64,000 nucleotides of DNA from Clavibacter zhangzhiyongii (lineage in GTDB: Bacteria; Actinomycetota; Actinomycetes; Actinomycetales; Microbacteriaceae): positions 2,914,001-2,978,000 of the forward strand of contig NZ_CP061274.1 of the NCBI RefSeq assembly GCF_014775655.1, given 5' to 3'. Below the pieces are notes generated by a model, which saw only the letters and a program-made list of their open reading frames with translations, made no database searches and was not told the DNA's origin. The translations under genes were made by a program, and so were the position numbers. Positions 1,207 through 5,295 of this stretch are shown here, one piece after another (the first letter of the stretch is position 1; each line of letters opens with the position of its first letter).

Positions 1207-1268
1207 CGGACGATCCTACGCGGCGGGCCCGCGGGCGCCCGGCGGTCGATGGCCCCGGGCACGCGAGA

Positions 1269-1301
1269 GCCCCGGCCCCCACTTCTCGTGGGGACCGGGG
1301 C
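1269..1301 (-). terminator. Strong hairpin after the 28-codon gene
   Basis: A near-perfect inverted repeat (GCCCCGG-x-CCCCAC / GTGGGG-x-CCGGGGC, 4-5 base loop) lies 37 bases after the stop of the small gene and before the hadA promoter. It makes the small gene an independent transcription unit. Confidence 0.75.
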
Positions 1302-1337
1302 CCGGGTACGCGATGCTGCTTCCGCGGCGTCAGCTGC

Positions 1338-1424
1338 CTACTGGCAGGAGTCGCACTGCAGGAGCTCCATGGGGTCGACGGGGATCGCGTAGCCGCCGAC
1401 GGTGTCGTTGTTGTCGTAGTCCAT
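1338..1424 (-). CDS. 28-residue peptide ending in Cys-Asp-Ser-Cys-Gln
   Basis: A very short gene: starts MDYDNNDTVGGYAIPVD and ends PMELLQCDSCQ. ATG is preceded by GGGAGG at 5-base spacing, a good ribosome binding site. A promoter and tandem operator-like boxes lie upstream and a strong terminator lies downstream, so it looks like a dedicated transcription unit rather than chance. I do not recognise the family. The C-terminal Cys-x-x-Cys tail resembles the flexible redox tail at the C terminus of ribonucleotide reductase large subunits; a Gly-Gly near the middle also leaves a modified-peptide precursor possible. No function is assigned. Confidence 0.6.
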   Translation of the reverse strand: MDYDNNDTVGGYAIPVDPMELLQCDSCQ

Positions 1425-1562
1425 GGGTGCCTCCCGTTGTGTCGTGTGGGGAGCCGCCGGTGCGGCTCCTCAGGTCTCGTGGCTCTCGCCCCGATGGCCT
1501 CCGGATCCGCGTCTCCGCGACGATCCGGTGTGCTCGGCCACCCGGTGGGGCGGTGAGGTTCT

Positions 1563-1611
1563 CCACTATATAACCCGAACTACAGACCTGTCATTCCACT
1601 ACATCTAGTGG
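1563..1611 (-). promoter_or_regulatory. Promoter with two NrdR-like boxes for the 28-codon gene
   Basis: Read on the minus strand, -35 ATGACA (1589-1594) and -10 TATAGT (1565-1570) are 18 bases apart. A perfect palindrome CCACTACATCTAGTGG (1596-1611) sits just upstream of -35. A second copy with a good left half (CCACTATAT) and a degenerate right half begins at 1563 and covers the -10. The two start 33 bases apart. Core and tandem layout resemble NrdR boxes, which normally have 15-16 base linkers; here it is 17. The leader (about 1558-1425) also holds a short GC hairpin at 1449-1470. Nothing else is seen in the 371-base gap 1425-1795 except the terminator at 1737-1769. Confidence 0.5.
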
Positions 1612-3555: not shown

Positions 3556-5295
3556 ATGACCCCACCCTCCCCCACAGCCCCCTCCCCGGCTGCCCGGGAC
3601 GACCTCCTGGCCCGCCCCGACCACGGCGACGCGCACGGCACCGGCTCCGAGTGGTGGCGCACCGCCGTGATCTACCAGATCTACCCCCGCTCGTTCGCCG
3701 ACTCCGACGGCGACGGCATCGGCGACCTCCCCGGCATCACCGAGCGGCTCCCCGCCCTCCGCGAGCTCGGGGTCGACGCCATCTGGCTCTCCCCCTTCTT
3801 CCTCTCCCCGCAGAACGACGCCGGCTACGACGTGGCCGACTACTGCGCGGTGGATCCGCTGTTCGGCACCCTCGACGACTTCGAGCGGATGCAGCGCCGC
3901 GCGCACGAGCTCGACCTCCGCGTCATCGTCGACATCGTCCCGAACCACACGTCCTGCGAGCACCGCTGGTTCCAGGAGGCCGTCGCCTCCCCGGCCGGCA
4001 GCGAGGAGCGCGCCCGGTACATGTTCCGCGACGGGAAGGGCGCCGACGGCGAGCTGCCCCCGAACAACTGGGAGTCGATCTTCGGCGGGTCCGCCTGGTC
4101 GCGGCTCACCGAGCCCGACGGCACGCCCGGCCAGTGGTACCTGCACCTCTTCGACTCCTCCCAGCCCGACCTCGACTGGACGAACCCGTGGGTGCGCGAG
4201 CGCTTCCGCGAGATCCTCCGCTTCTGGCTCGACCGCGGCGTCGACGGCTTCCGCGTGGACGTCGCGCACGGCATGGTCAAGGCACCTGGCCTCCCCGACT
4301 ACACGCCGCCCGAGGGCCAGGGCAGCATGGGCGGCGCCGGCGGCGTCGACGACCAGCCCGCTCCCCCGCCGCCCTACTTCGCGCAGGAGGGCGTGCACGA
4401 GATCTACCGCGAGTGGCGCGAGATCTTCGACTCCTACGAGGGCGACCGCGCGATGGTCGCCGAGGCGTGGGTCGAGCCGCTCGCGAAGCTCGCCGACTGG
4501 GTGCGTCCCGACGAGATGCACCAGGCCTTCAACTTCAGCTACCTCGAGACGCCGTGGGACGCGACGGCGCTGCGGCGCACGATCGACGCGTCGCTCGCGA
4601 CGTTCTCGTCCGTGGGCGCGCCCAGCACGTGGGTCCTCTCGAACCACGACGTGGTGCGGCACGCCAGCCGCCTGGCGCTCTCGGGCGAGAACCCGCAGGG
4701 CGTGGGCATCGGGCCGCGCTCGACCGTGACGGTCGACGAGGAGCTCGGCCTGCGCCGGGCCCGCGCCGCGAGCGCGCTCATGCTGGCCCTGCCCGGCAGC
4801 GCGTACATCTACCAGGGCGAGGAGCTCGGCCTGCCCGAGGACACGCGCCTGCCGGACGAGGCACGTCAGGATCCGACCTTCCACCGCACCGCGGGCGAGC
4901 GCTACGGCCGCGACGGCTGCCGCGTGCCCATCCCGTGGGAGGCCGGCACGCCGTCCTACGGGTTCAGCACGGGTGACGCCAGCTGGCTGCCGCAGCCCCG
5001 CGACTGGGACCGGTTCGCGCGCGACACCGAGCAGGCGGATCCCGCGTCCACCCTCGCGCTGTACACGGAGGCGCTGCTGCTGCGTCGCGAGCACGGGCTC
5101 GCGCTCGGCTCGCTCGAGTGGGTCACCGCCGAGGGCGACGACGTCATCGCGTTCGAGAGCGCCGGCGTCACCGTCATCGCGAACCTCGGCGCCGCGTCCG
5201 TGCCGCTGCCGGAGGGCCGCGTGCTGCTCGCGAGCCACGCGCTCGACGGCGACGCCGTGCCCTCGGACACGACCGTGTGGCTCCTCCGCGACTGA
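3556..5295 (+). CDS. Alpha-glucosidase, GH13 family (oligo-1,6-glucosidase type)
   Basis: A 579-residue glycoside hydrolase family 13 enzyme acting on small alpha-glucosides in the cytoplasm; no signal peptide. The start of the barrel (WWRTAVIYQIYPRSFADSDG) has the calcium-type DSDGDGIGDL loop. The catalytic triad is visible: Asp235 in DGFRVDVAHG, Glu303 in MVAEAWVE, and Asp365 in LSNHDVVRHA. ATG lies 6 bases after a TAGGCT box (3544-3549), so the mRNA is probably leaderless. The first 30 residues are a Pro/Ala-rich extension. Exact specificity (maltose, isomaltose, sucrose, trehalulose) cannot be read from the motifs. Confidence 0.94.
   Translation: MTPPSPTAPSPAARDDLLARPDHGDAHGTGSEWWRTAVIYQIYPRSFADSDGDGIGDLPGITERLPALRELGVDAIWLSPFFLSPQNDAGYDVADYCAVDPLFGTLDDFERMQRRAHELDLRVIVDIVPNHTSCEHRWFQEAVASPAGSEERARYMFRDGKGADGELPPNNWESIFGGSAWSRLTEPDGTPGQWYLHLFDSSQPDLDWTNPWVRERFREILRFWLDRGVDGFRVDVAHGMVKAPGLPDYTPPEGQGSMGGAGGVDDQPAPPPPYFAQEGVHEIYREWREIFDSYEGDRAMVAEAWVEPLAKLADWVRPDEMHQAFNFSYLETPWDATALRRTIDASLATFSSVGAPSTWVLSNHDVVRHASRLALSGENPQGVGIGPRSTVTVDEELGLRRARAASALMLALPGSAYIYQGEELGLPEDTRLPDEARQDPTFHRTAGERYGRDGCRVPIPWEAGTPSYGFSTGDASWLPQPRDWDRFARDTEQADPASTLALYTEALLLRREHGLALGSLEWVTAEGDDVIAFESAGVTVIANLGAASVPLPEGRVLLASHALDGDAVPSDTTVWLLRD

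Follow-up and report, generated by a model that had tools for sequence, protein, structure and literature searches.

The window analysed here is a 64,000-nucleotide stretch of the Clavibacter zhangzhiyongii genome (NZ_CP061274.1, positions 2,914,001 to 2,978,000), and near its start lies a gene for a peptide of 28 residues. We consider it very probable that this gene encodes, as a separate peptide acting in trans, the C-terminal redox tail that belongs to the cell's class I ribonucleotide reductase (RNR). RNR is an essential enzyme, and the peptide is probably a required part of it rather than an accessory, because the NrdA of this organism has lost its own tail. In class I enzymes, the tail enters the active site, its CxxC reduces the disulfide, and a redoxin then reduces the tail, as described in passages of PMC6187632 and PMC3618301; the tail that does this work is that of the adjacent subunit, according to the text excerpted from PMC3618301. 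The peptide is most likely a dithiol subunit that would re-reduce the NrdA active site in trans; the genetic arrangement is observed, and the chemistry is what we infer from it.

A tail-less NrdA and two tail genes in one genome

The window peptide carries its CxxC redox pair at residues 24 and 27. A search of its own genome gives, beside the gene itself (E 3.6e-16), a second match in the nrd operon, at a distance of 350 kb (E 1.8e-7; the two are 67% identical over residues 5-28). An earlier note, made from the window sequence alone, had pointed to a resemblance between the end of this peptide and the C terminus of the RNR large subunit. The resemblance is one of homology, as the second match is a tail gene behind nrdA. 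This operon tail open reading frame (ORF; MNDDTFGDYVVPMDPMDELQCDSCQ, 25 residues) lies between nrdA and nrdB. Its start overlaps the nrdA stop as TGATG, with its own GGGAGGTG ahead, and downstream of NrdA and the tail ORF the operon encodes the Ribonuc_red_sm subunit (nrdB).

NrdA has 833 residues with barrel, all-alpha and ATP-cone domains, and it matches the class I model NF005101 above cut-off. It ends ...RKGFGFGGVGGAR, directly followed by a stop. There are four cysteines in all (227, 305, 441 and 456), none of them after 456; from alignment to solved class I enzymes, we take 227, 441 and 456 to be the active-site cysteines. PF02867, the RNR barrel family, has a single match in the genome, so the cell apparently has no other enzyme of this family than NrdA; the search covered the barrel family and not the glycyl-radical enzymes of the NrdD type. 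The earlier note had raised the idea of a free peptide doing the tail's job. It could not see that NrdA itself is tail-less, and the sequence evidence now supports that idea.

Distribution across the Microbacteriaceae

How general is this arrangement? This NrdA is found in 45 of 100 Microbacteriaceae genomes (42 full length, 3 as contig fragments), and the peptide (E<0.01) is found in exactly the same 45 when the two sets are compared; four more genomes give only weak peptide matches (E 0.24-0.76). Among the other 55 genomes, 52 have a distant RNR match, and all 20 sampled from those 52 encode an NrdE with a fused C-terminal CVSC tail. The peptide occurs where, and in this sample only where, the tail-less NrdA occurs. 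Conservation of the frame in relatives, on which the earlier note had staked its proposal in advance, holds in a larger draw: the peptide has matches (E<=0.01) in 177 of 398 Microbacteriaceae genomes, from 41 of 85 genera, with little amino-acid change.

All 42 full-length tail-less NrdAs keep the three active-site Cys motifs and TYY, none has a CxxC in its last 60 residues, and 38 have no cysteine past the third active-site Cys. In 40 of the 42, nrdA is immediately followed by a tail ORF (39 loci and L069), and with the fragments (3/3) the operon copy is present in 43 of 45 genomes. The stand-alone copy is present in 44 of 45, and most genomes hold two tail copies. In two genomes (G053 and G015), there is no tail behind nrdA, and the sole tail is a remote gene with NrdR boxes. 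All 80 loci kept from named genomes end in C[DE]SCQ followed by a stop; the genome scan pattern that found them did not include the cysteines.

These loci bear on whether programmed frameshifting or read-through of the stop might join the operon tail to NrdA, with the stand-alone peptide as a spare or regulatory copy. Such joining draws some support from the window genome, where the tail frame that overlaps the nrdA stop is open far upstream (799 codons), and from the 5 of 39 operon tails that lie in frame with nrdA behind a stop codon. We nevertheless regard it as very improbable. The tails occupy frames 2, 0 and 1 relative to nrdA in 30, 5 and 4 of the 39 loci and start at about -4 to +57 nt from its stop, a spread that no single recoding signal fits; they have their own starts, often with a GGAGG-like site, and G053 and G015 have no adjacent tail to join. 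Because one recoding signal could not serve all three frames, the simplest reading is that the operon tails would be translated separately from nrdA.

Probable origin of the detached tail

The peptide profile matches fused NrdA ends in five outgroup genomes (E 7e-9 to 7e-4). The 20 nearest NrdAs from other actinobacterial families (L128-L147) carry the same tail fused, as ...CPVDPQERLQCESCQ; all 18 of the complete C termini among these loci end in a fused CxxCQ, the other two running off their contigs, and so do 8 of 8 more distant outgroup loci, with one genome, G649, as the exception overall. The split NrdAs end 7-23 residues past the [KR]GF[GA] motif (41/41, L069 left out), compared with 30-75 residues for those near fused NrdAs that have a recognised motif and a complete C terminus. 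Over 396 genomes of the phylum, the tail profile matched the genome of the window, a single fused outgroup (G423) and, in part only, two long frames in G925 and G934 (profile positions 6-19).

In a tree of 66 NrdA sequences (42 split, 20 fused, 1 tail-less and 3 of the 8 distant ones), the 42 split NrdAs form one clade (SH-aLRT 99), whose sister is a fused form from the same order; the tree was made by a quick method and leaves 22 of 63 inner branches open. Since the split NrdAs form one clade with a fused sister, they are most simply explained by a single detachment event in an ancestor of this branch of the Microbacteriaceae. The last NrdA residues with their CxxC would then have been cut off, giving rise to a free peptide about 21-35 residues long. 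One copy would have remained within the nrd operon, flanked by nrdA and nrdB, and a second would have come to stand alone behind an NrdR-controlled promoter.

Homology to fused NrdA tails also tells against a ribosomally made modified peptide (RiPP), the main alternative of the earlier note, or a metal-binding peptide unrelated to RNR catalysis. Either would suit a peptide this short, with a Cys motif at its C terminus and a promoter to itself. However, it has no Pfam, NCBIfam or PHROGs family above cut-off, and it co-occurs with the tail-less NrdA only. A had-like neighbour is kept in 33 of 46 stand-alone loci, and no RiPP maturation enzyme was recognised by eye among the nearest neighbours, for which no dedicated search was made. 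We hold such a product to be extremely unlikely. Judging by their sequence, we take the neighbours of the window gene to be murB-like, MaoC/had-like and aldo-keto-reductase-like. Because the adjoining had/MaoC-like genes are kept so widely, the stand-alone locus looks old and vertically kept.

Selection on the peptide and the two host copies

Over the last 17 codons, the stand-alone tails (43 genes) have a synonymous divergence (dS) of 0.695 and a nonsynonymous divergence (dN) of 0.075, a dN/dS of about 0.11; the operon tails (38 genes) give dS 0.870, dN 0.148 and dN/dS 0.17. The window's genus was removed from both sets, which takes away four of the 47 stand-alone genes and one of the 39 operon genes. 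In shifted frames there was no excess of synonymous change. By these estimates, the peptide frame is under purifying selection, and the stand-alone copy is more constrained than the operon copy, given its dN of 0.075 versus 0.148. A chance ORF or pseudogene was considered and is ruled out by homology, dN/dS and promoter conservation.

This comparison is relevant to the division of labour between the copies. The peptide might be a tail in trans that serves only as a stress or backup supply, while the operon copy, made together with NrdA and present in nearly all of the genomes, does the daily work; the presence of two copies in most genomes is consistent with this. We see it as a possible but doubtful alternative. 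The stand-alone copy is the one under tighter selection, and it is the copy retained when one is lost (G053 and G015), whereas the reverse case, G012, is an incomplete genome.

Promoter and predicted NrdR control

The window gene is complete, as the earlier note had described it: the ORF, its GGGAGG site and the promoter ATGACA-18-TATAGT are all present (Table 1). The promoter is the sole promoter-like match in positions 1200-1700 of the window, where shuffled sequences are expected to give 0.0 (sd 0.2). The leader hairpin proposed earlier is present as well, and the leader fold is more stable than shuffles. Within the leader, a perfect 8-bp hairpin, GGAGCCGC-ACCG-GCGGCTCC, lies at 1469-1450 (minus strand). 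The claim of a strong terminator stands only in part: the hairpin is strong, but the terminator is not secured, as there is no T run and a terminator scan around the gene returned 0 sites.

Table 1. Features of the stand-alone tail gene in the window (positions counted from the first letter of the window)
Feature	Position	Strand	Remarks
Stand-alone RNR tail peptide gene, MDYDNNDTVGGYAIPVDPMELLQCDSCQ	1338..1424	-	28 aa; stop included; ATG start
Ribosome-binding site, GGGAGG	1430..1435	-	5 nt before ATG; from sequence and aligned rows
5' leader with stable hairpins	1425..1560	-	136 nt; -64.8 kcal/mol; z -3.57
Promoter, ATGACA-18-TATAGT	1565..1594	-	Between and under the NrdR boxes
NrdR box 1, CCACTAGATGTAGTGG	1596..1611	-	Just upstream of -35; NrdR-like by sequence
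NrdR box 2, degenerate left half, right half TATATAGTGG	1563..1578	-	Covers -10
GC hairpin 3' of the gene, possible terminator	1266..1304	-	No T run; 83-nt stretch -51.4 kcal/mol; z -3.66

Two boxes flank the -35 of this promoter. Box 1 had been called a perfect 16-base palindrome, which it is not (14 of 16 positions pair), and its core had been said to fit NrdR, which it does at 12 of 12 informative positions of the 14-base consensus CACWANATNTWGTG; it is the only exact consensus site in the 3.1-Mb genome. The half-degenerate second copy over -10 is also present and fits 8 of the 12 informative positions. The boxes are 33 bp apart from start to start, with a 17-bp spacer, and as a pair they score 20 of 24, the only pair of at least 17 at spacing 32 or 33 in the 64-kb window; in 25 other loci (198,099 bases) there was no pair scoring at least 18. 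Elsewhere in the genome, the only further site, with one mismatch to the 14-base consensus, lies within a coding frame, presumably that of a succinate dehydrogenase iron-sulfur subunit, and was taken as chance.

The earlier note had asked whether nrd promoters share the palindrome, and they do. The 15-kb nrd locus of the window genome holds one NrdR box pair, at the nrdA promoter, which is too degenerate for the 14-base consensus pattern and was detected by pair scoring. Tandem boxes lie ahead of nrdA in 42 of 42 genes of the family (spacing 32 in 36, 33 in 6) and ahead of all 47 stand-alone genes, where the spacing is 33 in 42 and 32 in 4. In the remaining stand-alone row, L102, the script chose another pair, and a 12+7 pair at spacing 33 is present. 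Pair scores across both groups are 18-22 of 24, and the pair beats the best of 40 same-sequence shuffles in 41 of 42 nrdA rows and 47 of 47 stand-alone rows, the outcome for L102 resting on the wrongly chosen pair of equal score. A box pair is present in 78 of the 80 named-genome loci. NrdR itself is encoded in the window genome (TIGR00244 above cut-off, C1:1957200-1957631), in a region without a scoring box pair. Paired boxes over the promoter and an encoded NrdR together predict NrdR control of the stand-alone tail gene. Spacers of 15-17 bp gave the best NrdR binding and in vivo repression in the experiments excerpted from PMC12051234, and the start-to-start spacing of 32-33 seen here, that is, 16-17 bp between 16-bp boxes, is inside this published range.

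Tail genes on phages and plasmids

Tails are also carried by mobile elements. A tblastn search returned four phage records from three phages, phiPsal1, Pan2 and CMP1, with weak E values (0.007, 0.09 and 0.4), and the tails of all three end in C.SCQ followed by a stop; in phiPsal1 and CMP1, the unannotated tail comes just after a holin gene or a putative holin with three transmembrane segments. Plasmid records matching the tail number 19, all in Microbacteriaceae genera. One of them, a Leifsonia plasmid (L160, NZ_CP065038.1), encodes a 33-residue tail peptide at 4977-5078 (WP_223361114.1), whose record name, 'ribonucleotide-diphosphate reductase subunit beta', is an evident misnomer.

Among the best 80 of 300 IMG/VR stretches encoding a relative, the tail in all 80 closes a frame whose start codon lies about 25-32 codons upstream, and all 80 end in C[DE]SCQ followed by a stop. 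None of the 80 has a scoring NrdR pair, and none has NrdA in the DNA examined; NrdB is nearby in 3. Nor was NrdA found in the whole records of 50 of the 53 contigs that extend beyond the DNA examined, although fragments prove nothing here and the run had no positive control of its own; the same NrdA query matched 97 of 100 Microbacteriaceae genomes. Neighbours were checked at 6 of the 80 loci and are terminase, portal, head, tail, endolysin and peptidase genes. On three IMG/VR contigs of 59-121 kb (L247, L260 and L317), the tail gene is accompanied by an NrdB 81-86% identical to that of the window genome, while a search for NrdA gave nothing; in L260, the two are separated by an ORF that weakly matches an intein domain (E 0.0012, short of the cut-off).

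It might be argued that the stand-alone peptide is an RNR inhibitor or decoy, acting as a brake through competition at the active site or for thioredoxin. A separate promoter permits separate dosing, the window copy has diverged from the operon copy (to the 67% identity given above), and small RNR-binding proteins exist in yeast (Sml1). A decoy would not need the redox pair and terminal Gln, though, and these are kept in 80/80 named-genome and 80/80 viral loci. The stand-alone gene is the sole tail in two genomes, a predicted regulator shared with nrdA suits a partner over a brake, and phages would hardly carry a brake on the supply of deoxynucleoside triphosphates (dNTPs), unless to arrest the host. 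We therefore judge an inhibitor to be very unlikely.

Some genomes hold further copies. In G041, G052 and G069, the tail is present in four to six copies (L110, L113, L120, L122, L124, L125 and L126, on contigs of 21-112 kb), and several lie on contigs that may be plasmids. In L126 (G069:C26:1-5000, minus strand, about 541-930), the tail motif ends a frame that resembles an NrdH-type redoxin by eye; its active-site region is out of frame, and Pfam gave no family. At L118, L120, L122 and L121 (G076, G069, G052 and G023), the motif closes ORFs that are longer (about 100 residues) and match no Pfam family, the ORF of L121 being SSB-like by eye and having no evident start codon before the tail. 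In these four loci, the tail is possibly a portable C-terminal module.

Proposed mechanism and points against it

We propose that the non-covalent peptide would enter the NrdA active site and pass electrons from its CxxC to the disulfide; by itself, such a tail would be expected to be disordered. With a free tail, active-site re-reduction would depend on peptide concentration, and NrdR would match the tail dose to nucleotide supply through both tail genes. Phage and plasmid tail genes, which have no boxes, would probably drive host dNTP synthesis free of NrdR control. We lean slightly toward the full form of this proposal, in which this Microbacteriaceae branch runs its RNR on a diffusible dithiol peptide, the tail dose acts as a dNTP knob set by NrdR, and box-free phage and plasmid tails exploit it.

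Several points weigh against this interpretation. Both the expression of the peptide and its enzymatic role are deduced from sequence, and the proposal does not account for two host copies being kept. The five in-frame operon tails could in principle be read through into NrdA, and at L069 the end of nrdA is out of frame. The one genome with no stand-alone copy is G012, whose assembly is 82% complete. Two named-genome loci, L189 and L240, have no scoring box pair, and the nrdA pair of L039 merely ties with its best shuffle. Finally, in G649, a genome from a different actinobacterial family, the class I NrdA (L148; C6:224981-227362; 64% identity) ends without redox cysteines, and the genome gives no tail match anywhere; either this tail-less NrdA may do without, or the gene is broken, or the tail is too diverged.

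Significance

A clade with a cut-off tail would be a natural two-component system, in which tail binding, dose and active-site re-reduction could be measured apart, unlike in fused enzymes. Part of an essential enzyme would be encoded by a gene of 25 codons, overlooked or misnamed in standard annotation, and NrdR would gain a second kind of target. For phages, the tail would be a minimal gene for taking over nucleotide supply. If this is true, a box-free tail of about 25 residues is one of the smallest auxiliary metabolic genes, pushing the host RNR without any RNR subunit being encoded.

Comparison with known systems

The peptide shares the homologous xVDPxxxLQCxSCQ ending of fused class I NrdA and NrdE tails, with CxxC at the very end, and differs in being encoded, and apparently translated, apart from NrdA. 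A C-terminal pair in NrdA is stated for all class I RNRs in a passage of PMC6187632 and is called 'almost exclusively' general in class I in a passage of PMC9669993. We found no report of a detached class I RNR tail in the open-licence PMC literature; subscription papers and preprints were outside the scope of this search. As for redoxins, glutaredoxin and NrdH have a thioredoxin fold of about 75 residues or more, in contrast to 28 residues here, and the window peptide had no match among the redoxin families of Pfam and NCBIfam. The promoter resembles the NrdR regulon described in sections of PMC9110341 and PMC12051234, where two boxes about three helix turns apart lie over the promoter, but the target here is a 28-codon peptide gene and not an RNR operon.

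Split RNR genes are known. In Aeromonas phage Aeh1, the large subunit is divided over two coding regions, nrdA-a and nrdA-b, by homing-element breaks within the enzyme, according to the text excerpted from PMC3653736. Here, in contrast, the redox tail alone is separate, the split is inherited vertically within a clade of bacteria, and what phages carry is the tail by itself. The nearest precedent is NrdJa/NrdJb, the split class II RNR of Pseudomonas aeruginosa, in which NrdJb has 229 residues and is needed in vivo (from passages of PMC4520616). As in our case, that catalytic subunit is without redox cysteines, and a separate chain serves mainly for thiol-disulfide exchange; it differs in being a class II, adenosylcobalamin-dependent enzyme with both genes in one operon (also from those passages of PMC4520616), whereas here the enzyme is class I, the separate part is of about 25 residues, a second copy is unlinked, and phages and plasmids carry the tail alone. 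Judged by its sequence, the peptide is homologous to class I tails and is best likened to NrdJb, without belonging to the fused tails or to the class II split enzymes.
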